DNA from: Gammaproteobacteria bacterium | GTDB taxonomy: Bacteria > Pseudomonadota > Gammaproteobacteria > Tethybacterales > Persebacteraceae | NCBI GenBank assembly: GCA_020027345.1 | Contig: JAHRAH010000119.1 | Coordinates: forward strand, 1 to 33,560 | Length of the DNA stretch: 33,560 nucleotides | Direction of reading: 5' to 3' | Shown: positions 98-29,009 of the stretch, piece after piece | How the letters are laid out: each line of letters begins with the position of its first letter | Position numbering within the stretch: the first letter of the stretch is position 1 | The notes under the pieces: generated by a model | Seen by the model: the letters and a program-made list of their open reading frames with translations, nothing else | Told to the model about the DNA's origin: nothing | Databases searched by the model: none | Program-made: the position numbers and the translations under genes

Positions 98-229
98 GTT
101 ACATTTCCCTCTCCAGAGGTGTAACGGGGCTTTCTTTGAGTGGCGTCCACGCCGCTCCTAATTTAATTTGAGCGGGCGCGGACGCCCGCTATTGTCGGCA
201 CCGTTACACCTCTGGAGAGATGTAACGAG
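98..229. repeat. MITE-like palindromic element, copy 1 (diverged)
   Basis: The element has GTTACA...TGTAAC palindromic ends at 98-125 and 203-226. Between them are two strong hairpins: GAGTGGCG/CGCCGCTC (about 139-158) and AGCGGGCG/CGCCCGCT (about 171-190), joined by an AT-rich linker. The same architecture recurs at 24344-24477 (best copy) and, truncated, at 8538-8596. It carries no ORF. It lies just downstream of the TRAP permease stop, so its hairpins could also serve as a terminator. The left end differs from the other copies. Confidence 0.7.
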
Positions 230-267
230 AATGCGCTTAAATTAAATTAAGGGCGGCGGTTTTTAGT

Positions 268-2892
268 TCAATGTTTGCGCCCAGCGCGGCGGCGCTGCAT
301 AAATGCGACTAGCGCGAGCAGCAGCAGGGCGGGCAGCCAGAATAATTGTTTGGGCGGGCGCTCTTCGTTTTTTTGTTCCAGCGCCGTTATTTCCCAGTCC
401 AAATCCAGGCCCGCTTTTTCCGCCTCGCCGCCGAATGTTACCGCGTCTATAAAAACTTTTCCGCCTTCTTCGCGCGCGGCAAATCCTGCGTTTTCTTCCA
501 GCCGTTTTTCGCCTTCGCCTTTTTCGCCGAGCGGCAAACTCACGGTCGTATGCACCATTTTTCCGCTGCTGATGTCTTCGCCGCTCGCGCGCAGCCGCAG
601 TTTTGCGCCGGCCGGCGCGGCTTCGGCGGCGGCGAATATTTGCGCGGGCGGCAGCGAAAGATGCACCGGCAGGATTTTGTCCAGCCAGAAACCGGGGCGG
701 AACAAAGTGAACGCGATGAGAAGCAGCGCAACCGTCTCCCACCATTTGTTGCGCGCGAGAAACCACCCCTGCGTCGCCGCGGCGAACAAAAGCATCGCCG
801 CTAGCGCCGTCGCAAAAACCAAAACGCCGCCGGCGAAGCCGACATTTATCAAAAGCAAATCGGTGTTGAATATGAAAAGAAAGGGAAGTATCGCCGTGCG
901 AATGTCGTAGGCGAACCCTTGAAAGCCGGTTTTTATCGGGTCGCCGCCGGAAATCGCCGAAGCGGCGAAGGCGCCCAGCCCGACGGGCGGAGTGTCGTCG
1001 GCGAGTATGCCGAAATAAAAAACAAACAAATGCACGGCGATGAGCGGAACTATCAGGCCGTTTTGCGCGCCCAATTCCACGATGACGCCCGCCATCAGCG
1101 AACTCACGACGATGTAGTTCGCCGTCGTCGGCAGGCCCATTCCGAGTATCAAACTGAACACGGCGACGAGCAAAAGAATCAAAGGCAAACTCCCGCCGGA
1201 AAGCGTTTCTATGAATTCGGCGACGAACTGCTGCATTCCCGTGAGCGTTACCGCGCCGACAATTATTCCGGCGGCGGCGGTCGCCACGGCTATCGCCGTC
1301 ATATTGCGCGCGCCGGAAGCGAGCCCGCGGCAAAAATCGCGCCAGCCCTCGCGCATTTTTGCGCCCGGCGCTCCGCCGCGCATCCATTCTTTCAGCGGCT
1401 TGTGCGTGAGCGAAACGGCGGCGAGAAAAACGACCGCCCAAAAAACCGAAAACGCCGGCGATTTGCGCTCCACCATCAAAAACCAAACCAGCGCGAAAAC
1501 CGGCAGCGCAAAATACGCGCCGACCGGCCACACTTCGGAAAAATCGGGCGCGCGCACAAGCGGGCGCGAAGGGTCGTCCGGCGGCAGGTCCGGCTTTTTC
1601 GCCGAAACCCGCAGCAAAAACAAATACGCAATCACGGAAAAAACGATAACGGCGGCGATGACCGCGGCGTCGTCTTTCAGCGCCGCTTTCAATCCCGTCA
1701 GAATAAAATACGCCGCGCCGACGATTGCGATTAAAAACGAAATAATCAGCCCCGCCCGAATCAAAGCGGGGGCGAAAGCGCGCGTCTTCGCCGCCGAAGG
1801 CAAGCCGGCCATTCCCGCCTTCACCGCTTCCAAATGCACGATGTAAACAAGCGCGATGTAGGAAATCACCGCGGGCAAAAATGCGTGCTTGATGACTTCC
1901 AAATAGGAAACGCCGACATATTCCACCATCAAAAACGCGGCGGCGCCCATTATCGGCGGGGTCAGTTGCCCGTTTGTGGAAGATGCGACTTCCACCGCGC
2001 CCGCTTTTTCGGCGGAAAAACCGACGCGGCGCATCAGCGGGATGGTGAATGTCCCCGTCGTTACGACATTCGCGGTGCTGGAACCGGAAATCATCCCCGT
2101 CATCGCGGAGGCGACGACGGCGGCTTTTGCCGGCCCGCCGCGAAAGCGACCGAGCAGCGAAAACGACAATTGAATTATGTAGTTGCCGGCGCCGGCGCCC
2201 TCCAAAAGCAATCCAAAAAAAACAAACAGGAAAACAAAATTCGCCGAAACGCCGAGCGCGACGCCGAAAACCCCCTCGGTGTAAAGCCACATGTGCGACA
2301 TCGCTTTTTGGAAAGACGCGCCCTTCCAGCGCACCGATTCGGGCAGCAGCGAACTGTCGCCGAAAAACACATACAAAAGAAAAACAACGGCGACGCAAAC
2401 CAGCGGCAAACCGAGCGCGCGCCGCGCCGCTTCCAAAAGCAAAACCATTCCGATTCCCGCCGCGGCCAAATCGGCGGCGGTCGGCGCACCGGCGCGCCCG
2501 GCCAAATCTTCCTTGAATATCAGCAAATACAAAGCGCAAAGCGGCGCGACTGCCGTCAGCGCCCAGTCATAAGCGGGGACGCGGTCGCGCGGGGAACTTT
2601 TGAGCGCGGGATAGGCGGTGAAGACCAGAATAAAAGCGAACGACAAATGCGCGACTTTGACATCGTCCAAATTAAGAATCGGCAAGAAAGACGAAACATG
2701 AAACGGCAGCGGCGAAGCGACCCACAACTGAAACAGCGTCCAGATAATGCAGACGGCCGAAAAAGCCCGCCCGACGCCGCCCGAAAACCGCCGCCCGCCG
2801 GTGTCGGCGGCGGCAGCCATCTCCTGCGCCGCCGCCGCGCCGCTTGCCGCCGGTTTGTTTTCTGCCGGCATAGTCCCCCGCGCGTTTTTCAT
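268..2892 (-). CDS. TRAP transporter fused permease (4TM/12TM, DUF3394-type C-terminus)
   Basis: This 874-residue, very hydrophobic protein is the fused small and large membrane subunit of a TAXI-class TRAP transporter, which drives periplasmic-binding-protein-dependent uptake with an ion gradient. Visible hallmarks are the large-subunit segment around residues 240-330 (GMISGSSTANVVTTGTF, and a TNGQLTPPIMGAAAF stretch) and a second repeat near 560-640 (GMGLPTTANYIV, DDTPPVGLGAFAA). A non-membrane region at about 745-850 with a PDZ-like AEKAGLDLDWEI segment fits DUF3394, followed by a last helix and a basic tail. Its binding protein is encoded at 4423-5397 in the same direction. The ATG at 2892 was chosen because a good -10 box lies 7 nt upstream; a second ATG is 7 codons in. 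The substrate is unknown. Confidence 0.93.
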   Translation of the reverse strand: MKNARGTMPAENKPAASGAAAAQEMAAAADTGGRRFSGGVGRAFSAVCIIWTLFQLWVASPLPFHVSSFLPILNLDDVKVAHLSFAFILVFTAYPALKSSPRDRVPAYDWALTAVAPLCALYLLIFKEDLAGRAGAPTAADLAAAGIGMVLLLEAARRALGLPLVCVAVVFLLYVFFGDSSLLPESVRWKGASFQKAMSHMWLYTEGVFGVALGVSANFVFLFVFFGLLLEGAGAGNYIIQLSFSLLGRFRGGPAKAAVVASAMTGMISGSSTANVVTTGTFTIPLMRRVGFSAEKAGAVEVASSTNGQLTPPIMGAAAFLMVEYVGVSYLEVIKHAFLPAVISYIALVYIVHLEAVKAGMAGLPSAAKTRAFAPALIRAGLIISFLIAIVGAAYFILTGLKAALKDDAAVIAAVIVFSVIAYLFLLRVSAKKPDLPPDDPSRPLVRAPDFSEVWPVGAYFALPVFALVWFLMVERKSPAFSVFWAVVFLAAVSLTHKPLKEWMRGGAPGAKMREGWRDFCRGLASGARNMTAIAVATAAAGIIVGAVTLTGMQQFVAEFIETLSGGSLPLILLLVAVFSLILGMGLPTTANYIVVSSLMAGVIVELGAQNGLIVPLIAVHLFVFYFGILADDTPPVGLGAFAASAISGGDPIKTGFQGFAYDIRTAILPFLFIFNTDLLLINVGFAGGVLVFATALAAMLLFAAATQGWFLARNKWWETVALLLIAFTLFRPGFWLDKILPVHLSLPPAQIFAAAEAAPAGAKLRLRASGEDISSGKMVHTTVSLPLGEKGEGEKRLEENAGFAAREEGGKVFIDAVTFGGEAEKAGLDLDWEITALEQKNEERPPKQLFWLPALLLLALVAFMQRRRAGRKH

Positions 2893-9949: not shown

Positions 9950-12900
9950 TTAGGCGCGGGGGAGTTTTAGCGGGGGGAGAGCGTCCACTATTTTCACGGT
10001 TTCTATGCTGATGCGGACGACGCGCTTCAACAGCGAGACGATGTATTCGGGGCCGCCGCTCCATTCGTTGGGGTCGTTGACTATGCCGCTTTCTTTGTTG
10101 ACGGCGCGCTGATAACGGTCCATCACCCATTCCACGGCGGATTTGCCGTTGACGCGGTAGCAATGCGCTTTTTCCGGAATGCCCGCGAGCGTCAGCGAAT
10201 CGTTGTAAACGACCGCCGATTTGTCCAAGCCGCCGGATTCTTTTTTGGCAAAGCGCATTTTGCGCACGGCGTAATCCGGCTTGCTTATCAAATCGCGCTT
10301 TATTTCGCGCAGGGGATATTCGGGCGCGATTTCGTAGTTGACATGCAATTCGGCGAGCGCGCGCCCCGCTTTGGCGAAAGCGCGAAAATCCCGGACGGTT
10401 TCGGCGAAGGGAATGCGCGGCAGCATCTTTTTCAGGTCGGAGGCGTAACGCCCGCGGTATTGCGGGGAATGCAAAACGCCGTAGACATAATAAAAGATGT
10501 CCTCTTTGGAAATGCCGCCCGCGCCGTATTGCTTGCGGAAGAGTTGCAGCGTCGCGTCCGGAATGTTGTCGCGCCGTTTGCCGCCGCCCCCGGCGAGTTT
10601 GCCCGCCGGGGTTTCGTAATAATACAATGGGAAGCACTGTCCGTTGGACTGTAATTGAATATCGGACAGAGTGTCCGTCACCAACGCCGAAAAATCACTG
10701 CTCGCCCCGATTCCGGACACCGATATGATGCGGTTTTCTATTTTAACCGCCGGAAAAAATCGGGGCATTAAATGCACCCTGTTATTAAACTGACGGTCAA
10801 AATAAAGCCACTGCCGGCAAAATGGGCGATACAACGACAGACGAATATTATCGCCATCAAATACCCCCTCCTTTCCTTTTGCCAAGTTGTCCACCAATTT
10901 GGCGTTCCAGCTGATTTGTTTCTCATCCTTGTTTATGAAACCGTCAGCCGGCAGCGCATTTTTGCGCGCCTTGGCGATTTTATAAGCCGCAATTTGAGAA
11001 TTGTAAAACCCGATGGTCGCGCGCATATTGGCGGCAACCGTTTTGCGCGCAAAATTATATGCCCATGCGTCCCTTGTGGTTTCCGCGCCCCGGCTGTATA
11101 AAAGAAACACGCTCGGGGAAGCGGCGGTTTTGCCTTTGTTTTCCTTGGCGCCCAGCGGCAGGAATTTTTGGAATTCGGGATGGCGCTGGTTAATCCAGTC
11201 GCCGGCCTCGTTGGGGACGACGGTTTGCCATTCAAGGTCGGCGTAGTTTTTGCCGCGCACTATGTCCAGTTTTTGCTCGCGCGTCAGGTAATCGCCGATG
11301 TCGTGGTAATACAATTTTGCCGGTGCTTTTTCGGCGCCGCGTTTTTTGATAAAAACAGTAACGGCGACCGGCGTCCGGGTGCCGTGGCCGAAAACATTCC
11401 CCTTTTCCTTCCGGCGCTGTTCGCCCGAAGTGCGGGCGTTGCCGCGCAGGTTCAGGCAGTAGATGGAGGAAAAATCTTTAATCAAACTTTTGCGCAGTCC
11501 GGCGGTGGCGTTGCCTTCAATAAATCCGCCGTTGGTGACGAAGGCGACGACGCCCTCTTCGCCGATTCTGTCCGCGGCCCAGCGAATGGAGCGGATGTAG
11601 GAATCATATAAACTGTTTTTGTTCGTCGCCTCGGAAAGGCGGGCGTAGGTTTCGGTTATTCTCGCGTCCAGCGCGGGGTATTTTAGGTTTGCGTTGGCGT
11701 CGTTTGCGCTGCGCTGCCCGGCGGAATAGGGCGGGTTGCCGATGATGACGCGGATTTCCGCCTTGTTTTGTTTTTTCGCGCGGGCGGAGTTGTCGGGGAA
11801 CACTTGGTCAATGGCGCGGTTCGTGTTTTCGCCCATCCGGAAGGTGTCGGCGAGGACGATTCCGGCGAAGGGGCGGTATTCGCCGCCGGCGCGGAAATGA
11901 AAACTTTCTTCAATGTTGACGGCGGCGATGTAATAGGCGAGCAAAACGATTTCGTTTGCGTGCAGTTCGGATTCGTATTTGCGCGGCAAATCGCGGGAGG
12001 CGATGATTCCCGACTGCAGCAGGCGGGCGGCGAAAGTTCCCGTTCCGGCGAAAGGGTCCAAGATATGCACATTGCGGGCGGTCAACCCTTTTCCGAATTC
12101 CGCCCGCAGCGCTTTGTCGGCGCTGGCGAGGATGAAGTCCACGATTTCCACGGGAGTGTAGACGATTCCGAGGCGCTCGGAATCCTTCTTGAATGCGGCG
12201 GCGAAGAATTTTTCGTAGAGTTCCTTCATCACCGTTTGCTTGCCCTCGGCGGTTTCTATTCCGCTGGCGCGCTCGCGGACGCTTTCGTAGAATTTCGCCA
12301 GTTTTTCGGTTTCGGCTTTGAGTCCGGCTTTGTCCAGAATGTCCAGCATTTTTTGCATCGCGCGGGAGACGGGGTTTTTCTCGGCGAAGCGGTAGTTTTG
12401 GAAAAGGGCGGAAAAGACCGGGCGGGTGATGAGATGCTGCGAGAGCATCTCCACGGCGTCGGATTCGCCGACGGCGGGGTTGAGGTTTTCGCGGAGTTTT
12501 TCCAGAAAGTCGCCGAACGGCGCGCGGCAGGAGCCGGAATGCAGCAGCCCGCGGATTCGGGCAATGTTTGTGCGGGCTATTTCGCCGACATCCTTCGCCC
12601 AATCCTCCCAGTAGCGACGGTCGCCGCATTTGAGGACGATGCGGGCGAAGATGGCGTTTTTCCATTCTTCAAATTCGGGGAAGGGCAGTTGCGGCATAGC
12701 CGGTTCGGTTTGCCCGGACTTGCCCGCGGACGGTTCGGAATCGGGAAAAGGAACGCCGATGATTTGTATTTTGTCATCCGGCGCCCCCTCGTTGAGCGCG
12801 ATGCGGTTTATCATCGCGTTAAAGCGCTCGTCGTGGGCGCGCAGGGCGCGCAAAACATCCCAGATGATTTTGTAGTTTTGGTCGCCGGAGGAAAGCGCCC

Positions 12901-14737
12901 TTTCCGGCGGCTCGCCGGCGGGAATGACGACGGGCAAAATGACATAGCCGAGTTTTTTGCCCGGGGCGGTGCGCATCACGCGCCCGACCGCCTGCACGAC
13001 ATCCACCTGCGATTTGCGGGGGTTGAGAAACATCACGGCGTCCAGCGCGGGGACATCCACTCCCTCGGAAAGGCAGCGGGCGTTGGAAAGAATGTGGCAG
13101 CGGTTTTCGCCGGGTTCACTTCGCAGCCAGTCCAGCAGGTTGACGCGCTGCAGGGCGTTCATCGTGCCGTCTACATGCTCCACTTCGCAAACGAGTTCGC
13201 CCTCTTCGGCGGCGCCGCTCTTTTCGCGGTATTCGCGCACGATGGAATCAAAACTTGCCTTCACCCGCCGGGAATCCGCGATGCGGTTTGTAAAAGCGAC
13301 GGCGCGGCGCATCGGGGCGGGGTCGGCGTTTGGCGCTTCTTCCTCCGGGGTCAGGCGCTTGGCGAGTCCGTTCCAGCAGCCGACGAGTTTTGCGGCGTCT
13401 TTGAGTTTGAGTTCGCCGCCGTCCGCAAGGGAGGACTGCACGGCGCGCGCCATCCGGCTTTCGTCTATCGTCAGCACCATCACTTTGTAATCGGAAAGCA
13501 GCCCGCGGCGCACGGCTTCGGAAAAGCCGAGGCGGTGGAGTTCCGCGCCGTATTTTTCTTCGTCGTCCATGGAGTAGACGGTGATTTTGTTTTCCGCCGC
13601 CTTTTTCTTGGCGGATTCCAAATACAAGCGGGGAGTCGCCGTCATATACAGGCGCTTTTTGGCGAGAATGTAACCGGCGTTGTGTATGGCGGTGAAATAT
13701 TTGGCGACGCCCTCGCCGCCCTCGCCTTCGGGGCGCTCTATGCCGGTCGTGCGGTGTGCTTCGTCGCAAACCGCCAAATCAAAAGGCAAAACGCCGCTTT
13801 GCTTTTGCGCGCGGGCGACGACATCAATGGAATGGTATGTGGAAAAAACAATGTTCAGCCGCTCCGCGCCCGGCGCAAAACGCGCCTTCAAACGCCGCGC
13901 CAATTCGCCGGGGTTTGTCGTCGCCGGCAGGGCGAGGTCGTGCATTTGTATGTCCTCGTTGTCGCGCCCCACTTTGTCGTCGGAGCAAACGACAAAATTG
14001 CGCTGGGGAACTTCCGCCTCCTCCGAAAACTCGCGCAGCGCCTGCGAAAGCAAAGACAAAGAAGGCACCAAAAACAAAACGCCGCCGCCGCCGGGCGCCG
14101 CCACCGCTTCGGCGATTTTCAGGGCGGTGTAGGTTTTGCCCGTGCCGCAAGCCATTATCAGCCGCCCGCGGCCGGCTTTTTCCAAACCGGCGAGAACATC
14201 CTTTATCGCCTCGCGCTGATGCGGCATCGGCTTTTTCTTTTGCGCGGGGGTTTTGATTTTGGGGTTGAGAAAACTCGCCCACGGCGCGTCGCCGGCGGCC
14301 ATGTCTCCGCGGCCGACGCGAACGCACGGCACTTTCTGCCCGCGCATCGCGTCCTCGGCGTTCTTCCCCCACTTTTCGGTGGTGGCGACAATCATTCGGT
14401 GCGTGAACGGCCGCTTCCCCGACGCGGTGAAGAATGTGTCAATGTCGCCGCGCTGAATGGAGGTTCCGGGCGCGTAAAACTTCGCCTGTATCGCCCAGTA
14501 GTTTGTCCTGTCGCCGTCCGGCTCTTCGGCGACCAAATCTATGCCGGTGTCGTCTTTCGGTTCGCCGCGCGATTCGCGCCATTCCGCCCACAGGAAAACT
14601 TTTGCAAACCGGTCTTTGTATATCGCGTCGTGCCGCAGCCAAAATTGCACCAGCCGCTCAAAAAAGCGCCCCTGCTCCGCCGTGTTGCCGGCTTTCGCCC
14701 GCAACGCTTCCAGCACTTTGTTAAAATCGTCCAGCAC
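9950..14737 (-). CDS. Type ISP single-chain restriction-modification enzyme
   Basis: This is a single 1595-residue polypeptide carrying all activities of a restriction-modification system. In order it has an Mrr-like nuclease domain (TGIDLVAEE with D67, then WAIQAKF with Q84 and K86); a superfamily 2 translocase with Walker A ACGTGKT (196-202), DEAH (325-328), MTATP (365-369) and the motif V/VI block SEGVDVPALD...QAVGRVMR (557-589); and an N6-adenine methyltransferase with DPFAGTGTF (894-902) and NPPY (1001-1004). The remaining ~450 residues are the expected target-recognition region. Domain order and size match LlaBIII/LlaGI-type enzymes. The start is GTG at 14737, with AGGGAAA just upstream. 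No separate subunits are needed or present. All motifs look intact. The target sequence cannot be read from the protein. Confidence 0.95.
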   Translation of the reverse strand: MLDDFNKVLEALRAKAGNTAEQGRFFERLVQFWLRHDAIYKDRFAKVFLWAEWRESRGEPKDDTGIDLVAEEPDGDRTNYWAIQAKFYAPGTSIQRGDIDTFFTASGKRPFTHRMIVATTEKWGKNAEDAMRGQKVPCVRVGRGDMAAGDAPWASFLNPKIKTPAQKKKPMPHQREAIKDVLAGLEKAGRGRLIMACGTGKTYTALKIAEAVAAPGGGGVLFLVPSLSLLSQALREFSEEAEVPQRNFVVCSDDKVGRDNEDIQMHDLALPATTNPGELARRLKARFAPGAERLNIVFSTYHSIDVVARAQKQSGVLPFDLAVCDEAHRTTGIERPEGEGGEGVAKYFTAIHNAGYILAKKRLYMTATPRLYLESAKKKAAENKITVYSMDDEEKYGAELHRLGFSEAVRRGLLSDYKVMVLTIDESRMARAVQSSLADGGELKLKDAAKLVGCWNGLAKRLTPEEEAPNADPAPMRRAVAFTNRIADSRRVKASFDSIVREYREKSGAAEEGELVCEVEHVDGTMNALQRVNLLDWLRSEPGENRCHILSNARCLSEGVDVPALDAVMFLNPRKSQVDVVQAVGRVMRTAPGKKLGYVILPVVIPAGEPPERALSSGDQNYKIIWDVLRALRAHDERFNAMINRIALNEGAPDDKIQIIGVPFPDSEPSAGKSGQTEPAMPQLPFPEFEEWKNAIFARIVLKCGDRRYWEDWAKDVGEIARTNIARIRGLLHSGSCRAPFGDFLEKLRENLNPAVGESDAVEMLSQHLITRPVFSALFQNYRFAEKNPVSRAMQKMLDILDKAGLKAETEKLAKFYESVRERASGIETAEGKQTVMKELYEKFFAAAFKKDSERLGIVYTPVEIVDFILASADKALRAEFGKGLTARNVHILDPFAGTGTFAARLLQSGIIASRDLPRKYESELHANEIVLLAYYIAAVNIEESFHFRAGGEYRPFAGIVLADTFRMGENTNRAIDQVFPDNSARAKKQNKAEIRVIIGNPPYSAGQRSANDANANLKYPALDARITETYARLSEATNKNSLYDSYIRSIRWAADRIGEEGVVAFVTNGGFIEGNATAGLRKSLIKDFSSIYCLNLRGNARTSGEQRRKEKGNVFGHGTRTPVAVTVFIKKRGAEKAPAKLYYHDIGDYLTREQKLDIVRGKNYADLEWQTVVPNEAGDWINQRHPEFQKFLPLGAKENKGKTAASPSVFLLYSRGAETTRDAWAYNFARKTVAANMRATIGFYNSQIAAYKIAKARKNALPADGFINKDEKQISWNAKLVDNLAKGKEGVFDGDNIRLSLYRPFCRQWLYFDRQFNNRVHLMPRFFPAVKIENRIISVSGIGASSDFSALVTDTLSDIQLQSNGQCFPLYYYETPAGKLAGGGGKRRDNIPDATLQLFRKQYGAGGISKEDIFYYVYGVLHSPQYRGRYASDLKKMLPRIPFAETVRDFRAFAKAGRALAELHVNYEIAPEYPLREIKRDLISKPDYAVRKMRFAKKESGGLDKSAVVYNDSLTLAGIPEKAHCYRVNGKSAVEWVMDRYQRAVNKESGIVNDPNEWSGGPEYIVSLLKRVVRISIETVKIVDALPPLKLPRA

Positions 14738-14755
14738 GGCTTTCCCTGCGGGGAT

Positions 14756-14761
14756 ATTATA
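14756..14761 (-). promoter_or_regulatory. -10 box (TATAAT) of the type ISP gene
   Basis: A perfect TATAAT lies 18 nt before the GTG at 14737, predicting a leader of about 10-12 nt with an AGGGAAA ribosome binding site. There is no clear -35. It is in the 46-nt gap after the Abi gene, so the restriction enzyme can be expressed on its own. Confidence 0.45.
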
Positions 14762-14783
14762 GCCGTTTGGTGGAAAGTGTTCG

Positions 14784-15479
14784 TTATCGGCGCCAAAATT
14801 CCGCCGCCCGCCATCCGCCCGGAAAACCCATCGCCGCCTCGCAAACTTCGCCGCGACTTTCCAGCAACCCCAACAATTGCCGCGCCCAGTCGCGCCCCGG
14901 CGGTATGATATCCGTCAGGTGCGCCAAAAGAACCAGCGTGTTGTAGAGTTTTCCCTGCGCGGCGAAATTAAAGAACGGCTTCAACGCCGGTTTTTTAACC
15001 GGCAACACCGGCTCAATGTCAAAACGCACATTCCACAAACGCTCGTGATGCGCGCAAATGTTGCGAACTTCCGTCAGATGATGCAAAAACGGCGCGAGGA
15101 TTTTTTCATCCGTTCCGTAGGCGTTTGCAATTTGCTGGCGCAGGGAATGGCTTTTGATGCCGCTGTAACGCCGCGACAATTTTCCCATGGATGTTTTCAC
15201 CTCACTCCGAAAAGGCATCTGCGCGCGCACGGAAATCTCAACGCGCCCGGCGGCGTCCATCACCAGCAGGCGCAATTTACGGTCAAAAACATAAAGGTCA
15301 ACGACGCGCCCAAAATCCGCGCCTTCGCAAAAACGCCCGCCGCCCCGCCCCTGAAAAGAAGACCAGTATTCGCGCAAAACGCCCGCGCCGATGTGCCGCA
15401 AGAAATGCCGCGCGCTTTCGCGGTCGGGAACGCACATCCCGAGGCGAATCAAGGAATTAATCCGCTCGTCGGCATTCAT
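14784..15479 (-). CDS. Abi family protein (AbiD/AbiF-like, HEPN fold)
   Basis: The protein has 231 residues from the ATG at 15479; a TTG seven codons upstream is possible. The family core is present: IRLGMCVPD near the N-terminus, the DLYVFDRKLRLLVMDAAGRVEI helix (61-82), and the diagnostic LTEVRNICAHHERLWN (135-150). R139 and H144/H145 of the latter form the R-x4-6-H motif of HEPN ribonucleases. Abi_2 proteins are abortive-infection factors; by family inference it would cleave RNA on phage infection. It is directly upstream of the type ISP gene in the same direction and has its own strong promoter, so the two form a small defence unit. The trigger and the target are unknown. Confidence 0.9.
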   Translation of the reverse strand: MNADERINSLIRLGMCVPDRESARHFLRHIGAGVLREYWSSFQGRGGGRFCEGADFGRVVDLYVFDRKLRLLVMDAAGRVEISVRAQMPFRSEVKTSMGKLSRRYSGIKSHSLRQQIANAYGTDEKILAPFLHHLTEVRNICAHHERLWNVRFDIEPVLPVKKPALKPFFNFAAQGKLYNTLVLLAHLTDIIPPGRDWARQLLGLLESRGEVCEAAMGFPGGWRAAEFWRR

Positions 15480-15504
15480 CGGGGTTTCGGCGCGGCGCAA
15501 TGTT

Positions 15505-15686: not shown

Positions 15687-16661
15687 TTATGCGAAGAGGG
15701 GCGCGTCGTTGTTTTTGGGGGGACGGCTGGCGAGGAGTTGTTTGAGGGATTGGGGGGAATCGGGGGCGGGCCAGGGAAGCGCGCCTTTTTTTTGCAGCGC
15801 CGCCAGTCCTTTGCGTTCGCCGCCTTCGGCGCGGACATAAATTGGCGCGAGGCGGAGGGAGTTCAGTTGTTCCGTCGCGCCCGCCCATGTTCCGCCGGCG
15901 CCTTCGGCGGAATGCACGACCAATGCGGCGTCGGCGAGCGCGTATATTAATTTGTTGCGTTCCATCGCGCGCCCGACTGCAAAGCCGGCGCCGGGGTCGC
16001 AAGGCGAAACCAAAACCAGCCGTCCGTCCGCGAGCATTTCGCGGTGTTCGGAATGCGTCGCCGCCCGTTCCAAACCGTGCGCGAGAACGCCCGCGGCGCT
16101 TCCGCCGTTTTCCAGCGCGCCGCGCATCGCGGACAAATCGGCGCCGCGCGCCGCGCCGGAAATCAAAACAGCGCCCGCCCGCGCCGCGAGTTCGCCGGCG
16201 CCGCGCGCGTATTCGGCGAGTTCTTCGTTTATTTCGCGCGAGCCGACGACCGCCAATCCTCCGCTTTCCAAAAGCGCCGGTTCGCCGCAGCCAAAAAGCA
16301 CCGCCGGCGCGCGCGCGCGCAACCGTTCTTTAATGCGGCGGGGATATTCGCCGTCGCCGCGCCCGAAAAACCATATCGCCCGCGCCTGCCAGCGCCGCGC
16401 CGCCTGCGCGAGCAAAAAACCGCGCGCCAAAAGCGTGCGCAGCCGGTTCGCGCAAACGACATTCGCGCATTGTTCAATCCATTTCTCGGAATCGGGCGCG
16501 ATTAAATCCGCCGGGGTTTTTTGCAGTTCGCCCAGCCGCTGCGCGAGTTTGTTGTATTCGCCGAGTGCCAGCGTTTTCGCTTCTTCCCGCCCGCGCCCGG
16601 CGAACAGCGGCGCGCTCAGCAAAAGCGCCGCCTGCGTGTTTGCGGAAACTTCCCCGCTCAC
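15687..16661 (-). CDS. dprA: DprA/Smf-like DNA-processing protein (SLOG Rossmann fold)
   Basis: The protein has 324 residues from GTG at 16661, which overlaps the helicase-PRTase stop by 4 bp (GTGA). The Rossmann core carries LAVVGSREI (136-144), LISGAARGADLSAM (166-179) and ERNKLIYALADAALVV (234-249, corresponding to the RNR motif of DprA). A GGTWAGATEQL block (256-266) stands in place of the usual SG-s-l-TA motif. An N-terminal helical region (about 1-120) precedes it and the usual C-terminal winged helix is absent. Canonical DprA loads RecA on incoming single-stranded DNA in transformation. The variant motifs and the coupling to a PRTase-helicase suggest a specialised partner rather than the housekeeping protein. 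The name therefore denotes family, not proven role. Confidence 0.85.
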   Translation of the reverse strand: MSGEVSANTQAALLLSAPLFAGRGREEAKTLALGEYNKLAQRLGELQKTPADLIAPDSEKWIEQCANVVCANRLRTLLARGFLLAQAARRWQARAIWFFGRGDGEYPRRIKERLRARAPAVLFGCGEPALLESGGLAVVGSREINEELAEYARGAGELAARAGAVLISGAARGADLSAMRGALENGGSAAGVLAHGLERAATHSEHREMLADGRLVLVSPCDPGAGFAVGRAMERNKLIYALADAALVVHSAEGAGGTWAGATEQLNSLRLAPIYVRAEGGERKGLAALQKKGALPWPAPDSPQSLKQLLASRPPKNNDAPLFA

Positions 16662-18721
16662 TGCATTCGCCCGGCGGCGTCCGCCAAAACAAAAGGAAAA
16701 ACTTCGCCCGCGCCGTTTTGCCGCAAAAGCCGCGCGGCGAATGTAAGCGTCCATCCCGAATCCATAATGTCGTCCACGAGCAAAACCGCGCCGGGCAAAA
16801 CCCCGCCGCAAACTTCCGCCGCGCCGAAAACATTGCGCGCCTGCTGCGCGCTGTTTTGCATTTCTTTTTGCGGCGGGCGCGGGGTTTTTATTTTCAGCGC
16901 GGCGCGAAACTCCAACGCCAAAAGCGCCGCCAGCCGCCGCGCAAAACCGGAAAGCAAATCCGGATGCCGCAGCGACGGCGCGCAGGTTATCCATTCCGGA
17001 CGCGGCCGCGGATTCCATTCGGCAATCAGCCGCGCGCAGGCGGCCGCAAGTTCTTCGCCGAACTCTCCGCTTTCGTATTTTCCGGCGCGAACCAAATCGC
17101 TCCAGCCGCCGTCGCCCCAAACGCAAAGCGCGCGCCCCTCGCGCATGTTTTCGTTTTCGGCTATTTTGCCGCGCAAACCGTCCGGCATTCCGGAAGGCCA
17201 CATTTTGCGCGGTTTTATGACGGCAAAAGAACGGCGCAAAAAAGCCGCCGCCTCCCGCGCCAGCGCCGGATTCACATCTTCCGAAAGCGGGCTGCCGGGC
17301 GGCTCCCGCACCGCGTCCGCGTCGCCGTCCAAAGCGGCGACGAGAAAACGCATATGCCCCGAAGAAAGCGCGGCGCATTCGCGCATTTGTTTTTGTTCTT
17401 CGCGCCGCAATTGCGTGAGCCGTTGCGCGCGCCGCCAAAACGATTCGCTTAACTGCGCCGCGGTCAGCCGCCAGCGGGTTCCTTCTTTTACAACCGGCGC
17501 GGGCGATTCCAGCGAAAGCAATTGCAAAGTTTTTTCCGCGCGGCTTTTGCGAATGTTCAGCCGCGCCGTAAGTTCCGGCAAAGTCAACCCGTCCGCTTTT
17601 TTTAATTCGCCGACGACCGCCGCCGCTTCCTCGCGCGAGGGAAAAGCGGTGTTGATGAAATGATCGTTGATGTCGCCGTCTTCCGCGCCGTGCAGCAAAA
17701 CGCAGTGCGCGTTTTTGAGCGCCCGCCCGGCCCGCCCGACCTGCTGGTAATAGGCGACGACAGAACCGGGCGACTGATAATGAATTACAAAAGCCAAATC
17801 CGGCTTGTCAAAACCCATTCCCAGCGCCGTCGTCGCGACCAGCGCTTTTATTTTGTTTTCCAGCAGCGCCTGTTCCAATTCGGGGCGCTTTTCGCTTTCG
17901 CTTGTGTATGATTCGGCGGCGAACCCGCAACGCCGCAGCCACGCGGCGACCCTCTCGGCGTCGCGCACGGTGAGGGCGTAGATAATTCCGCTTCCCCGCA
18001 TTTCGCGCAACCGTTCCGCCAGCCAGGCCAGCCGCCGCGCCGGAGGCGGAATGTCCATAGTTTGCAAAATAAGCGAGCGGCGCGACAAATCGCCGCGCAT
18101 TACTTTAATATTCGCGCCCAGCGTTTCGCGCAAATCGTCGACGACGCGGTCGTTTGCCGTCGCCGTCGTCGCCAAAAGGCGAAGATTGCCCGGCAGCGCT
18201 TCAATCATCCGCGCGAGCAAACGGTAATGCGGGCGGAAGTCGTGCCCCCAGTCGGAAATGCAGTGCGCTTCGTCAATAACCAAAAGCGATATTCGTTCCG
18301 CCGCCCGCGCCAGCACGCGCGTTTGAAAGCGCTCGTTTGCCAGCCGCTCCGGGGAAATAAGCAAAATGTCCGCCTCGTCGGCGAGGATTTTTTGCTCGGC
18401 GCTTTCCCATTCTTCGGTGTTTTCGGAATTGATGGTAATCGCGCGCAACCCCATTCTTTCCGCCGCGGCGATTTGATTTCGCATCAGCGCAAGCAGCGGA
18501 GAAACAAGCAAAGCCGCGCCGCCGCCGGCTTCGCGCAAAAGTTTGGCGGCAATAAAATACACGAAACTTTTCCCCCAGCCGGTGCGCTGCACGACCAGCA
18601 GCCGCCCCTTTCCTTCGGCGACGACGCGCACAGCATCTTCCTGCCCTTCGCGAAAAACCGCCCCGGCGTTTTGGCAGCCCAGCCGCAAAAGTTGCAGCGC
18701 CCGATTTGCGTCATACTTCAC
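16658..18721 (-). CDS. RecQ-like helicase fused to a C-terminal phosphoribosyltransferase
   Basis: The protein has 687 residues. Residues 1-345 are a RecQ-type superfamily 2 helicase: QRTGWGKS (45-52), DEAH (150-153), TTATAN (185-190), TTALGMGFDKPD (297-308) and QQVGRAGR (326-333). A winged-helix-like section follows (about 360-425). The place where RecQ normally has its four zinc cysteines (about 448-480) keeps only C449 and reads GHMRFLVAALDGD then a Cys-free tail. Residues 560-687 are a type I/ComF-like PRTase with the PRPP loop LLVDDIMDSGWTL (647-659). The start is GTG at 18721, with TACAAT 6 nt upstream. The next gene is the overlapping DprA-like one. This composition recalls ShosTA (PRTase plus DprA), here joined to a helicase. 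A DNA-repair or defence role is inferred. Confidence 0.9.
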   Translation of the reverse strand: MKYDANRALQLLRLGCQNAGAVFREGQEDAVRVVAEGKGRLLVVQRTGWGKSFVYFIAAKLLREAGGGAALLVSPLLALMRNQIAAAERMGLRAITINSENTEEWESAEQKILADEADILLISPERLANERFQTRVLARAAERISLLVIDEAHCISDWGHDFRPHYRLLARMIEALPGNLRLLATTATANDRVVDDLRETLGANIKVMRGDLSRRSLILQTMDIPPPARRLAWLAERLREMRGSGIIYALTVRDAERVAAWLRRCGFAAESYTSESEKRPELEQALLENKIKALVATTALGMGFDKPDLAFVIHYQSPGSVVAYYQQVGRAGRALKNAHCVLLHGAEDGDINDHFINTAFPSREEAAAVVGELKKADGLTLPELTARLNIRKSRAEKTLQLLSLESPAPVVKEGTRWRLTAAQLSESFWRRAQRLTQLRREEQKQMRECAALSSGHMRFLVAALDGDADAVREPPGSPLSEDVNPALAREAAAFLRRSFAVIKPRKMWPSGMPDGLRGKIAENENMREGRALCVWGDGGWSDLVRAGKYESGEFGEELAAACARLIAEWNPRPRPEWITCAPSLRHPDLLSGFARRLAALLALEFRAALKIKTPRPPQKEMQNSAQQARNVFGAAEVCGGVLPGAVLLVDDIMDSGWTLTFAARLLRQNGAGEVFPFVLADAAGRMQ

Positions 18722-18727
18722 GGCGCA

Positions 18728-18733
18728 ATTGTA
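18728..18733 (-). promoter_or_regulatory. -10 box (TACAAT) of the helicase-PRTase gene, leaderless type
   Basis: TACAAT lies 6 nt before the GTG start in the 32-nt gap after fumC. It would give the helicase-PRTase/DprA pair its own leaderless transcript, independent of aguA-fumC. No -35 is evident; upstream sequence is the end of fumC. Confidence 0.45.
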
Positions 18734-18753: not shown

Positions 18754-20154
18754 TTATCCCTGAATCCCGCCTTCGGTTAATTTGGCGGGGTCCAAAAGTT
18801 TGGCGAGTTGGGCGCGGGGGATTTCGGTTTCTTCGGCGGCGACATCCAAAACGGGGCGTCCTTCTTTGTAGGCGCGCTTTGCAATTTGCGCCGCTTTTAA
18901 ATAACCGATGACCGGGTTTAATGCCGTTACCAGAATCGGATTTTGCGCGAGCGAACGGCGCATCGCTTCCGGGCGCGGATGAAAACCGGCGATGGCGCGG
19001 TCGGCGAGCAAGGGCGCGACGGCGGCGAGCAGTTCAATGGATTCCAAAAGGTTGTCCGCTATCAGCGGCAGCATCACATTCAATTGGAAATTGCCGGACT
19101 GCCCGGCGACGGTTATTCCGGCGTCGTTGCCGATAACGCGCGCCGCGACCATGCACGCGGATTCGGCCGCGACCGGATTTACTTTTCCGGGCATTATGCT
19201 GCTGCCCGGCTGCAGCGCGGGCAATTCAATCTCGCCCAAACCGGCGAGCGGGCCGCTGTTCATCCAGCGCAAGTCGTTGGCGATTTTCATCAGCGCGACG
19301 GCGGCGGCTTTTAATTGCCCGGACATTTCCACCGCCGCGTCCTGCGAAGCCAAACTTTCAAAAAAAGAAGCGTTCGGAACAAACGGCGCGCCGGTCGTTT
19401 GTTTCAGTTTGCGCGCAAAAAGCGCGGCGAACTTCGGATGCGTATTAATCCCGGTGCCGACCGCCGTGCCGCCCTGCGCCAGCATCAGCAGGCGCTTTTC
19501 CGAATCCTTTATGCGCGCGATGCTTTTGCGAACCTGCGCCGCCCAGCCGCCGAGTTCCTGACTCATGCGCACGGGCATCGCGTCCATTAAATGCGTGCGC
19601 CCGGTTTTTATGTGCCGCCGCGTTTGCCGCGCCTTTTTTTCAATTGTTTTCGCCAGATGTTCAAGCGCCGGCAAAAGCGCGCCGCGCAAACGCAAAACCG
19701 CCGAGACATGTATCGCCGTCGGGACGACATCGTTGCTGGACTGCCCCATATTGACATGGTCGTTGGCGCTCACATTCATCCGGCTTTTTTGCGCCGCCAA
19801 AGTGGAAAGCACTTCGTTGATGTTCATATTGCTGCTCGTGCCGGAGCCGGTTTGGAAAACATCCACCGGGAAATGTGCGAGGTGTTCGCCCGCGGCGACT
19901 TCCTTCGCCGCGGCGGCAATTGCGGCGCCGATTTTTTTGTTGAGCAGTCCCAGTTCCATATTCGCATCCGCCGCCGCGAGTTTTATCAGCGCCAGAGCGC
20001 GAATAAAAGCCGGGCGCATCGGGCGGCCGCTGACGGGGAAGTTTTCCGCCGCGCGCTGCGTTTGCGCGCGGTAGAGCGCGCCCGCCGGCACGCGCAGTTT
20101 GCCCATGGAATCCTCCTCAATGCGGAAGTTTTTGTTGTTTGCTTTTTTTGTCAT
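18754..20154 (-). CDS. fumC: Class II fumarate hydratase
   Basis: The protein has 466 residues and interconverts fumarate and malate in the citric acid cycle, as a homotetramer in the cytoplasm. Superfamily signatures are intact: FRIEEDSMG and ALYRAQTQRA near the N-terminus, TGSGTSSNMN (102-111), NMGQSSND (135-142), TGRTHLMDAMP with the catalytic His (H188), and the flexible-loop signature GSSIMPGKVNP (317-327) with the catalytic Ser. The length equals that of characterised FumC. The ATG overlaps the aguA stop (ATGA), so the two are coupled, although no metabolic link is obvious. Confidence 0.95.
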   Translation of the reverse strand: MTKKANNKNFRIEEDSMGKLRVPAGALYRAQTQRAAENFPVSGRPMRPAFIRALALIKLAAADANMELGLLNKKIGAAIAAAAKEVAAGEHLAHFPVDVFQTGSGTSSNMNINEVLSTLAAQKSRMNVSANDHVNMGQSSNDVVPTAIHVSAVLRLRGALLPALEHLAKTIEKKARQTRRHIKTGRTHLMDAMPVRMSQELGGWAAQVRKSIARIKDSEKRLLMLAQGGTAVGTGINTHPKFAALFARKLKQTTGAPFVPNASFFESLASQDAAVEMSGQLKAAAVALMKIANDLRWMNSGPLAGLGEIELPALQPGSSIMPGKVNPVAAESACMVAARVIGNDAGITVAGQSGNFQLNVMLPLIADNLLESIELLAAVAPLLADRAIAGFHPRPEAMRRSLAQNPILVTALNPVIGYLKAAQIAKRAYKEGRPVLDVAAEETEIPRAQLAKLLDPAKLTEGGIQG

Positions 20155-25109: not shown

Positions 25110-25171
25110 CCGAAAACAAACTTCGCCGCGAAATTTAAATATTTGTTTTTTCGCATTATCTTATGCCGCAT

Positions 25172-26011
25172 TCAAAGCCAGCGCTTGCGGCGTTTGTAGG
25201 ATTTTATGTTTTTGAACGACTTGCGCTCGCGGTGCGAGCCGAGGTAAAACTCCTTGACATCCTCGTTTTCGCGCAGTTCTTCGGCGGTTCCGTGCAGGGC
25301 GATTTTGCCCTGCTCCATCACATAGCCGCGCCCGGCGACGCGCAGCGCCATATTCGCGTTTTGTTCCACAAGAAGAACGGTTACGCCCAGTTCGCGGTTG
25401 AGTTTTGCGATGATGGAAAAAACCTCGCGCACCAAAAGCGGCGAAAGCCCCATGGAGGGTTCGTCCATCAAAATCAGCCGCGGCGCGGCCATAAGCGCGC
25501 GCCCTATCGCGAGCATTTGCTGTTCGCCGCCGGAAAGATAACCGGCGAGCCCGCGCCGCTCTTTAATGCGCGGAAAATAATGAAACACTTTGCGCAGGTT
25601 TTCCTCTTCGCCGTTCGGGTCGGCGGCGTGCGCGCCCAAAAGCAGGTTTTCCAAAACGCTCATATCCTGAATAATGCGCCGCCCCTCCATCACCTGAAAT
25701 ATGCCGCGGCGGACGATGTCGTCGGGGCGCAACCCGTCTATGCGCGCGCCGCCGTAAAGTATTTCTCCGCGCGTGATTGCGCCTTCCTCGCTTTTGAGCA
25801 GCCCCGATATTGCTTTGAGGGTTGTGGATTTTCCGGCGCCGTTCGCGCCCAGCAGCGCGGTTATCCCCCCGGCTTCCGCATGCAAACTCAGCCCGCGCAA
25901 AACCAGCGCGACTTCGTTGTATATCACTTCAATGTTATTAACCGCCAAAAGCGGCGCGGCGGCGGCGGGGTTGCCGTTCGCCGCGGGCGAAGCCGTTACG
26001 GTTTGTTCCAT
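25172..26011 (-). CDS. livF: Branched-chain-type ABC transporter ATPase
   Basis: This 279-residue cytoplasmic ATPase is of the LivF class. After a ~20-residue Ala/Pro-rich lead it has LLGANGAGKST (Walker A, 53-63), the Q-loop VMEGRRIIQDMSV, LSGGEQQMLAIGRAL (159-173), LMDEPSMGLSP (Walker B, 181-191) and the H-loop position LLVEQN. The basic tail ending FKNIKSYKRRKRWL is characteristic of a LivF subgroup. It overlaps the end of the aldehyde dehydrogenase gene by 16 bp. Its likely partners are the LivM permease and binding protein at 29043-31357. No LivG or LivH lies in the window, so the transporter is incomplete here. Confidence 0.93.
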   Translation of the reverse strand: MEQTVTASPAANGNPAAAAPLLAVNNIEVIYNEVALVLRGLSLHAEAGGITALLGANGAGKSTTLKAISGLLKSEEGAITRGEILYGGARIDGLRPDDIVRRGIFQVMEGRRIIQDMSVLENLLLGAHAADPNGEEENLRKVFHYFPRIKERRGLAGYLSGGEQQMLAIGRALMAAPRLILMDEPSMGLSPLLVREVFSIIAKLNRELGVTVLLVEQNANMALRVAGRGYVMEQGKIALHGTAEELRENEDVKEFYLGSHRERKSFKNIKSYKRRKRWL

Positions 26012-27423
26012 CCGCTCACCGCTTTCACTTCCAAAAACTCCTCCAAGCCGAAAACACCGCCTTCGCGCCCGACGCCGGAATGTTTGTAACCGCCGAAAGG
26101 CGCGCCCGAATGCAAATGCGCGCCGTTTATTTGCACCATTCCCGAACGCAGCCGTTTTGCGATTCTCCGCGCGCGTTCTGCGTCGCCGGTTTGGATGTAG
26201 TTTGTCAAACCGTATACGGTGTCGTTCGCCGCCGCAACCGCTTCTTCTTCGCCGTCAAAGGGCGCGACGGCGAGCACCGGGCCGAATATTTCCTCGCGCG
26301 CTATTGTCATTTCCGGTTTGACATCGGCGAAAACCGTCGGGCGCACAAAATACCCGCGCCCGCGCCCTTCGGGACGGCCGGTTCCGCCGGTGACAAGCCG
26401 CGCGCCTTCGTCTATTCCGCTTTGTATCAGCCGCTGGATTTTCTCAAACTGCGCGCGCGAAACAACGGGGCCGATGTGCTTTCCTTCTTTTTCCGCCGCG
26501 TTGGTTTCGGTCTTCTTTGCGGTTTCCGCCGCGGACTGCACGGCTTTTTCGTATATGGATTTTTCCGCAAACATTCGCGTCGGCGCGTTGCACGATTGCC
26601 CGGTGTTGTTGAAGCAGTGCCGCGCGCCGCGCACGACGGCTTTTTCGTCGGCGTCGGCGAAAATAATGTTCGCGCCTTTTCCGCCGAGTTCCAAACTGAC
26701 GCGCTTGAAAGTGTCCGCCGCGTTTTTGGAAACGCGCGCGCCCGCCCGCGAAGAACCGGTGAAGGAAACCATATCCACATCCGGATGCGCCGAAAGGCGC
26801 TCGCCGACGACGGCGCCCTCGCCGTTTATGAGATTGAAAACGCCCGGCGGAAAGCCGGAGTCGTGAATCATTTCCGCAAAAAGCATCGCCGAGAGCGGCG
26901 CGATTTCCGAAGGTTTGAGAACCGCCGCGCAGCCGGCGGCGAGAGCGGGCGCGGCTTTCAGCGTGATTTGATTCATCGGCCAATTCCAGGGCGTGATGAG
27001 CGCGCAAACGCCAATCGGCTCGCGCAGCACGGCGCCGCCGTTTGTTTCGCGCTCAAACTCGTAATCCTCCAACTCGGAGATGAAGGTTTGCAAATGTCCT
27101 TCGCCGGCGCCGACTTGCGCCGCCCGCGCCATCGTAATCGGCGCGCCCATTTCCAAAGATATCGCCTCCGCCATTTCGTCCGCGCGCTTTTGGTATTGCG
27201 CGAGAAGTTTTTGCAAAAGCGCGAGGCGTTCCTTTTTTTCGCTTTGCGACCATTCGGCAAAAGCCGCCCGCGCCGCGGCGACTGCGGCGTCGGCGTCCTC
27301 TTCGCCGCCGAAAGATATCACCGCGCAGGGTTCTTCGGTGGAGGGATTAATAACCTCGGCGTCATGCGCGCGCAGGGGCGCGGACCATTTCCCGCCGATG
27401 TAAAACTTCCGCTTGTCAAGCAT
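25996..27423 (-). CDS. NAD(P)-dependent aldehyde dehydrogenase
   Basis: The protein has 475 residues, full length for the family. It oxidises an aldehyde to the acid in the cytoplasm. Motifs are the ITPWNWP cofactor/oxyanion segment (N147), LKPSEIAPLS (169-178), FTGSSRAG (221-228), the general base E245 in SLELGGKGANI, the catalytic C278 in NNTGQSC, and EEIFGPVLAV near the C-terminus. It is the generic ALDH type (betaine/aminobutyraldehyde-like), but the substrate cannot be told. AGGAG precedes the ATG at 27423, and a TAAAAT lies 23 nt upstream. Its coupling to livF suggests catabolism of an imported compound. Confidence 0.93.
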   Translation of the reverse strand: MLDKRKFYIGGKWSAPLRAHDAEVINPSTEEPCAVISFGGEEDADAAVAAARAAFAEWSQSEKKERLALLQKLLAQYQKRADEMAEAISLEMGAPITMARAAQVGAGEGHLQTFISELEDYEFERETNGGAVLREPIGVCALITPWNWPMNQITLKAAPALAAGCAAVLKPSEIAPLSAMLFAEMIHDSGFPPGVFNLINGEGAVVGERLSAHPDVDMVSFTGSSRAGARVSKNAADTFKRVSLELGGKGANIIFADADEKAVVRGARHCFNNTGQSCNAPTRMFAEKSIYEKAVQSAAETAKKTETNAAEKEGKHIGPVVSRAQFEKIQRLIQSGIDEGARLVTGGTGRPEGRGRGYFVRPTVFADVKPEMTIAREEIFGPVLAVAPFDGEEEAVAAANDTVYGLTNYIQTGDAERARRIAKRLRSGMVQINGAHLHSGAPFGGYKHSGVGREGGVFGLEEFLEVKAVSGWNKP

Positions 27424-27511
27424 CGCTTCGCTCCTTTTGTTTTATTATTTTATGGGACAACCGTTTCTTAAAAAAAGCGCCGTCCAGAAGAAGGGCGTAT
27501 TTTTGTGTCAT
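27416..27511 (-). pseudogene. N-terminal remnant of a NYN-domain (PIN-like) protein
   Basis: This 31-codon reading frame begins MTQKYALLLDGAFFKKRLS, very like the first strand of NYN/LabA nuclease-like proteins (hydrophobic strand, then the catalytic D-G and a Lys/Arg-rich turn). After this the sequence turns into an AT-rich stretch and stops inside the aldehyde dehydrogenase start. The rest of the domain (about 150 residues) is missing, so this looks like a truncated gene. The match is short, and a chance resemblance cannot be excluded. Confidence 0.35.
27447..27452 (-). promoter_or_regulatory. Putative -10 (TAAAAT) of the aldehyde dehydrogenase gene
   Basis: TAAAAT lies 23 nt before the ATG with an AGGAG site between, so this would be a short-leader transcript. 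It is embedded in a generally AT-rich stretch, and no -35 is clear. Confidence 0.3.
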
Positions 27512-27639: not shown

Positions 27640-28533
27640 TCAACTCCCCGCTTCTGCCGCGCCGTTTGCGCCCGCGAGCAGGCGGGCGGGGGCTTCGGCG
27701 GCGAGGCGGCTTTCGGCGGTTTGGCAGTATTGCGAGGAGATTTCCACGCCCAAATAATCGCGCCCGGTGCGGCGGGCGACCAGCGTCGTCGTCCCCGCGC
27801 CGTTGAAGGGATCCAACACGGCATCGCCGCGAAAACTAAAAAGCAGCAAAACCCGCCGCGCCAATTCCTCCGGAAACATTGCCGGATGACCGTGCTTGGA
27901 TGCGCGCTCCGGCGCAATCGCCCATTTGCCGTAGACCCATTTCTTAAAGTCCTCGCCGCTGATGTCGGCGTTTTCGCGCAAGCCGGGTTTTTTGATTCCG
28001 CCCTTGCAGAAAACTTCCACAAACTCCCACGAGTATTTGAGATACGGCGCCGAGGGGCTTTTCCAACTTCCCCAGGAAGTGTATTTGCAGTTGTAGTTGT
28101 TTTTTTCCCAGAGGATTTCGCCTTTCCAAATCATCCCGCGGCGCAGCAAATGCCGGCTGATGATGTGGTGCGAGGGGACATAATCCGAAAACAGCGGCTG
28201 CACATTGACAACAACGCGCCCGCCGTCCTTGACGACGCGAACGCATTCGTCCAAAATGCGAAAGAGTTTGCGAAAGTATTCGCGCCAGTTTTTGTCGTCG
28301 CGCGCGCCGCCGTAATCCAGCCCGAAGTTGTAGGGCGGCGAAGTGAAAACGATGTCAATGCATTCATTCGGAAGTTCGCGCAAAAAGATTTCGCTGTCGG
28401 CGCAAACGATTTTGTTGCGATATTCTTCCGGAAGTTCGCAACCGCCGCGCGCGCGGGTTTTTGCCGCCGATTTTAGTTCCCGGAATTCCCCCGCCGCGCC
28501 TTCGCGCCGTTTTTTTATCTTTTCATTTTTCAT
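27640..28533 (-). CDS. Orphan DNA methyltransferase (N6-adenine or N4-cytosine, beta-class order)
   Basis: The protein has 297 residues from the ATG at 28533. Catalytic motif IV is TSPPYNFG (64-71) and the S-adenosylmethionine motif I is DPFNGAGTTT (241-250), in the IV-before-I order of beta-class enzymes. A WGSWKSPSAPYLKYSWE section (154-170) and HPAMFPEELARR (216-227) are typical of this family. The N-terminal 35 residues are basic. There is no cognate restriction endonuclease next to it; it overlaps the thioesterase stop by 4 bp (ATGA), so it is co-expressed with a metabolic operon. It could be an epigenetic regulator or the survivor of a lost restriction system. Confidence 0.92.
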   Translation of the reverse strand: MKNEKIKKRREGAAGEFRELKSAAKTRARGGCELPEEYRNKIVCADSEIFLRELPNECIDIVFTSPPYNFGLDYGGARDDKNWREYFRKLFRILDECVRVVKDGGRVVVNVQPLFSDYVPSHHIISRHLLRRGMIWKGEILWEKNNYNCKYTSWGSWKSPSAPYLKYSWEFVEVFCKGGIKKPGLRENADISGEDFKKWVYGKWAIAPERASKHGHPAMFPEELARRVLLLFSFRGDAVLDPFNGAGTTTLVARRTGRDYLGVEISSQYCQTAESRLAAEAPARLLAGANGAAEAGS

Positions 28534-29009
28534 TTCTCGCTTTCGCCGCCGGAAGGTTTGGCGAAAGGGTTTGCGACTACGGCGAAAGTGAGGAGCGCTT
28601 TTGCGAGGAGTTTTTTTTCGCCCGCTTTTTCGCCGAAAACCTCGGCTTCGCCGATTATCAGCCGCCGCCCGGTTTTGATAACGCGCCCCTCCGTCAGCAA
28701 CCGTTCGCAATCGCCGGGGCGCAACAAATTCAATTTGTATTCCGCCGTCAACACGCGCTCGCCCTCGGCGACGACAGTGGATGCGGCGACGCCGGCGGTG
28801 TGGTCGGCGACGACGGCATATAAACCCCCGTGAATAACGCCGCCCTGATTCAAAAGTTCCGCGCGCGAAGACAAAACGCTGCGGCAAAATCCGCGTTCCA
28901 GCGCGATGATTTCCAAGCCGACAAATTGCGTAAAGCGCGAAGCGCGCACGACCCAGTCGGCGTGCGACAAATCCCCGCAGCCGGGGGCCTTACCTTCGCC
29001 GGCATTCAT
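28530..29009 (-). CDS. PaaI family hotdog-fold thioesterase
   Basis: The protein has 159 residues. The hotdog domain has the PaaI signature LNQGGVIHGGLYAVVADHTAG (53-73), with H60-G-G and D69 in the catalytic region, then LTAEYKLNLLRP in the middle strand. It hydrolyses acyl- or aryl-CoA thioesters, often to rescue CoA during aromatic-acid catabolism. It lies between the ABC binding protein (33 nt upstream) and the methyltransferase (4-bp overlap). Together with an aldehyde dehydrogenase and the Liv-type transporter it suggests uptake and breakdown of an organic acid. Confidence 0.9.
   Translation of the reverse strand: MNAGEGKAPGCGDLSHADWVVRASRFTQFVGLEIIALERGFCRSVLSSRAELLNQGGVIHGGLYAVVADHTAGVAASTVVAEGERVLTAEYKLNLLRPGDCERLLTEGRVIKTGRRLIIGEAEVFGEKAGEKKLLAKALLTFAVVANPFAKPSGGESEK

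Follow-up and report, generated by a model that had tools for sequence, protein, structure and literature searches.

Identification of the operon

In the window analysed here, a 33,560-nucleotide stretch of gammaproteobacterial DNA, a gene for a RecQ-like helicase that carries a PRTase domain at its C-terminus is followed by a gene for a DprA-like protein. This locus raises the question of whether the two genes form a new system or belong to one already described. The initial annotation proposed that the pair could be a helicase-armed relative of ShosTA in which DprA restrains or senses the PRTase. This view fits, but the exact system has already been published as PsyrTA, or RqlHI. The same two-gene architecture is found in PsyrTA of P. 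syringae, following the account of Sberro 2013 cited in PMC8790059, and in RqlHI of extraintestinal E. coli (PMC4670107). Moreover, shosTA, syrTA, and rqlHI have been grouped as systems with DprA-type antitoxins (Rousset 2022, PMC9122126).

The toxin gene, psyrT/rqlH, lies on the minus strand at 16658..18721 and encodes a RecQ-like helicase with a C-terminal PRTase, 687 aa in length, from a GTG start. The helicase-PRTase reading frame reported initially is real, but its end at 18733 was placed 12 nt beyond the true position of 18721. The PADLOC PsyrT model matches the 687-aa protein with an E-value of 2.1e-254 and 844 bits, and residues 1–683 align with positions 1–685 of the 689 in the profile. 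Alignment and a motif check also bore out the intact motor motifs and the C-terminal PRPP loop that had been noticed earlier. Walker A RTGWGKS (residues 46–52; 18566..18586, minus strand), the DEAH box (residues 150–153; 18263..18274, minus strand), TTATAN (residues 185–190), and QQVGRAGR (residues 326–333) are all intact, and the PRPP loop VLLVDDIMDSGWT occupies residues 646–658 (16748..16786, minus strand). The equivalents of RqlH K49 (mutated in PMC4670107), D148, and D663 are all present in the window as K51, D150, and D654, respectively. Additionally, the helicase matches TIGR00614 with 231.8 bits (cutoff 219.8) and is a RecQ-like SF2 protein with intact ATPase motifs. It falls short of canonical RecQ, with an NCBIfam equivalog score of 262.9 against a cutoff of 640.2.

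The antitoxin gene, psyrA/rqlI (15687..16661, minus strand), encodes a DprA/SLOG-like protein of 324 aa that lacks the C-terminal HTH. As had been proposed, its GTG start overlaps the TGA stop of psyrT within GTGA. The psyrA frame stays open upstream of this GTG, and the choice of start is supported because position 3 of the PsyrA profile aligns to residue 5. The PADLOC PsyrA model matches residues 5–314 (1.8e-106, 354.6 bits), and Pfam DNA_processg_A matches at 4.9e-33; it falls short of canonical DprA, with an NCBIfam equivalog score of 79 against a cutoff of 191.15. The order of psyrT and psyrA and their 4-nt overlap recur in the copies from S. meliloti and from an E. coli plasmid.

In common with PsyrTA, the two proteins match practically the entire toxin and all of the antitoxin core, and the gene order agrees; in contrast, the 324-aa antitoxin has no HTH region, and the helicase has no zinc cysteines. 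Similar to RqlHI, a RecQ-like helicase with a PRTase precedes a DprA-like gene in one operon, with equivalent Walker, DEAH, and PRPP-loop residues, whereas identity to the E. coli plasmid copy is approximately 46% for the toxin and 42% for the antitoxin. The runner-up PADLOC families are far behind PsyrT and PsyrA, with 301 bits for DpdF and 74 bits for ShosA. Collectively, these comparisons indicate that the two genes are very probably a toxin-antitoxin operon of the PsyrTA (RqlHI) kind, located in a small defence island. The pair is therefore not new, having been described already; the window holds a further copy with a minor structural twist, and its identification strikes one candidate "new" system off the list.

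The PRTase domain and its relatives

The PRTase domain spans residues 501–687 of PsyrT (16661..17221, minus strand). The Pfam Pribosyltran score of the psyrT C-terminus is under the cutoff (23.2 vs 26.3 bits), and the fold was therefore tested by modelling. An AlphaFold2 model of the domain, built from 16 aligned homologues, reached a pLDDT of 95.5, and a Foldseek search of the PDB with this model returned PRTases throughout, with H. pylori ComF (7p0h) at the top and ShosT with PRPP (8zvc) also listed. The ShosT profile matched the window PRTase with an E-value of 0.0005 over 35 residues only. In a tree with ShosT and ComF, poorly resolved at approximately 122 columns, too few to relate the domain to ShosT, the ShosT branch is very long and the window PRTase falls outside the ComF group; clustering with ordinary ComF, which the initial annotation had named as contrary evidence, was thus not seen.

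ShosTA shares with the window a PRTase toxin of the same fold and a DprA-like antitoxin. In contrast, ShosT is a stand-alone PRTase without a helicase, the window PRTase is fused to one, and the sequence link between the two is weak. Membership in ShosTA was ruled out on this fusion and on the antitoxin scores (ShosA 74 bits, PsyrA 355 bits). The ComFA/ComFC competence pair likewise has a helicase-linked PRTase, and H. pylori ComF is the top fold match, whereas ComFA and ComFC are separate proteins with a role in competence, and the window PRTase lies apart from ComF in the poorly resolved tree. Two further genomes of this class carry ShosTA or ShosTA-like pairs, consisting of a DprA-like gene and a small PRTase gene (L095, approximately 1760-2950, and L094, 2096-3593, both minus strand).

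Genomic neighbourhood and transcription

Adjoining psyrTA on the minus strand, with short gaps, are an AbiD-like gene and then a type ISP restriction-modification (RM) gene (9950-15500); both are outside the system. The Abi_2/AbiD-like gene (14784..15500) matches Pfam Abi_2 at 1.6e-27 and PADLOC AbiD at 5.4e-36, and the RM gene (9950..14737) encodes a single-chain type ISP enzyme of 1595 aa with Pfam Type_ISP_C, ISP_coupler, and Mrr_cat_2 domains and a PADLOC IIG score of 2034 bits. On the other side lies a housekeeping gene for class II fumarase (18754..20154, minus strand; Lyase_1 and FumaraseC_C), which is present in 5/5 genomes of the order, with 63-75% identity in the four relatives. The same-family fumarase loci have no other gene in common with the window. 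Together, psyrTA, the AbiD-like gene, and the type ISP gene form a compact defence island between the fumarase gene and AzlC/aminopeptidase genes.

The defence setting proposed at the outset also holds more widely, since RM, BREX, or ABC-3C neighbours are often found. The E. coli plasmid copy sits within a type I RM operon, the Acinetobacter plasmid copy sits within a BREX locus, and psyrTA of Yersinia nurmii adjoins an ABC-3C gene; some copies have no evident defence neighbour. Elsewhere in the window, approximately 9 kb from psyrTA, a stand-alone N6/N4 DNA methylase gene (27640-28887, minus strand; Pfam N6_N4_Mtase, 6e-38) adjoins open reading frames without Pfam matches (25163-27471, plus strand).

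The claim of a private psyrT promoter is weak. The proposed -10 box, TACAAT, is indeed present 6 nt ahead of the psyrT GTG, but no -35 element pairs with it, and a promoter scan of 5.6 kb found nothing at the psyrT start and one site overall against 1.5 expected. The looser motif TANNNT occurs 4.5 times per kb. Read-through from the fumarase gene is equally possible because psyrT starts 32 nt past the stop of this same-strand gene.

Distribution and phylogeny

PsyrT occurs in 16/399 genomes of the phylum and in two of the five genomes of the order of the window; in a third genome of the order, PsyrA is found at a contig end. As had been anticipated, the association with a DprA-like partner is frequent: PsyrA lies next to PsyrT in 9/12 phylum loci, counting those with a visible downstream side and leaving the window out. 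The window PsyrT is 59-61% identical to the S. meliloti (61%) and Yersinia copies, and its identity to the copy in the same-family genome G002 is approximately 48%. Similarly, in the tree, the window PsyrT groups with the S. meliloti and Yersinia copies, apart from G002, and the G002 copy occupies a different site, between genes for phosphoglucose isomerase and a thioredoxin-like protein. This patchy presence and a phylogeny that does not follow the host are not the pattern of a vertically inherited core gene, the outcome that the initial annotation had named as adverse. Sequence comparison thus indicates that the history of psyrTA in the window is horizontal. A tblastn search for carriage in phages matched the helicase core only, and every match spanned less than 80% of the query.

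Match statistics and lengths are identical for the PsyrTA loci of "Citrobacter sp. 18056" (L048) and Yersinia nurmii (L049), which suggests recent transfer or a mislabelled assembly. PsyrT is in pieces in a Cardiobacteriaceae draft (L050:202-1021) and contains an internal TAG in L080 and L089, and PsyrA is split over two frames in an S. meliloti locus (L056:10076-11430); these broken copies may represent sequencing errors or real decay.

Loss of the HTH and the zinc module

The psyrA reading frame ends at 324 aa, and no HTH remnant was found past its stop in three frames. The HTH is also absent from the G002, CSMAG, and Lachnospiraceae copies of PsyrA; the clade mates of the window mostly retain a longer antitoxin C-terminus. 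RqlI has this C-terminal HTH, and RqlI 1-320, which is without it, still neutralises (PMC4670107); the HTH-less antitoxin of the window should therefore still work. Given these copies and RqlI 1-320, the HTH is not essential for membership in PsyrTA/RqlHI.

In PsyrT, the four cysteines of the RecQ zinc-binding module (for example, CGKCENC in other PsyrT proteins) are absent from the corresponding region (17291..17386, minus strand), according to the alignment and motif survey. The zinc-less proteins of the window, S. meliloti, Y. nurmii, G138, and G084 form one group with support of 100/100, and the cysteines are kept in 15/15 other full-length PsyrT proteins examined. Other PsyrT proteins share this module, and its absence was counted against the PsyrTA reading of the window; the cysteines are common in PsyrT and lie outside the published PsyrTA/RqlHI definition. 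A limited literature search found no published description of a zinc-less PsyrT branch. The zinc-less clade, here with an HTH-less antitoxin, might be a functionally distinct subtype in which DNA is sensed by the bare motor. With only this motor left for sensing, the trigger or substrate would differ from that of RqlHI. We consider such a subtype rather unlikely. A branch that naturally has no zinc module, here with an HTH-less antitoxin, offers a simpler version for testing the parts that are required for sensing, restraint, and toxicity.

Alternative explanations

The two losses could instead represent decay, leaving a degenerate and inactive remnant. The joint absence of the zinc cysteines and the HTH, together with the broken relatives in L050, L080, and L089, would agree with this explanation. 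However, the zinc loss is common to a clade that is well supported and whose proteins are otherwise intact, every motor and PRPP motif is kept, both frames are open, and RqlI is functional without its HTH, and decay is thus very improbable. A housekeeping role is slightly more credible but still improbable. Here, the helicase and a DprA paralogue would serve in repair or recombination, the PRTase would be a salvage or regulatory add-on, and toxicity would be an effect of overexpression. Consistent with such a role, nearly every Gram-positive that carries RqlH has no RqlI (PMC4670107), three PsyrT loci of the phylum are without PsyrA, and psyrTA gave no signal of foreign base composition, its GC content being like that of its neighbours and the genome. 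Nevertheless, the patchy occurrence within the order and the phylum, the differing sites in two same-family genomes, the departure of the phylogeny from the host, and the frequent RM, BREX, and ABC-3C neighbours all argue against repair, and the source genome, a 2.36-Mb draft, encodes a separate housekeeping RecQ and DprA.

Finally, PsyrT could be taken for DpdF of the Dpd (7-deazaguanine DNA modification) system, since PADLOC DpdF models match it, at best with 5.1e-90, and some match its PRTase. However, the PsyrT model outscores DpdF by 844 to 301 bits, the score with NCBIfam DpdF is 162 bits and thus far from the cutoff of 550, and there are no dpd genes among the annotated neighbours. Membership in Dpd was rejected on these scores and has a negligible chance of being correct.

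Possible mechanism

For the PsyrTA/RqlHI reading, the functional background comes mainly from RqlHI. In E. coli, RqlH alone causes SOS induction, filamentation, and mutation, and deletion of the PRTase or a change of D663 (D663A) abolishes its growth inhibition and SOS induction (PMC4670107). Moreover, RqlI binds RqlH via the PRTase, as observed by co-immunoprecipitation, and neutralises it; the helicase motor restrains the RqlH PRTase, and the viability of helicase-dead mutants is not rescued by RqlI (PMC4670107). ShosT shows phosphoribosyl transfer and pyrophosphatase activity, disturbs purine pools, and damages DNA (reviewed in PMC12593503).

By analogy, the mechanism of ShosT might apply to PsyrT. 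The PsyrT-PsyrA complex would load on DNA, and PsyrA would let go or be drawn away once DNA or the metabolism of the host is disturbed by a phage or some other element. The freed PRTase could then draw on PRPP to change either the nucleotide pool or a DNA base, possibly resulting in DNA damage and a growth stop, as reported for ShosT. It is conceivable that, as proposed in the initial annotation, a nucleotide signal or DNA that has been unwound controls the window PRTase. The psyrTA operon of the window may also act against phages; a deletion/expression test of PsyrTA in E. coli NILS69 detected no protection against phages (PMC12409345).

In locus L090, a PsyrT homologue (1486-2799, minus strand) is cut to 437 aa, with the zinc module and PRTase gone, and an intact PsyrA of 454 aa (170-1534, minus strand) overlaps the shortened gene. 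The loss of the PRTase half while the antitoxin is kept fits the PRTase as the toxic part.
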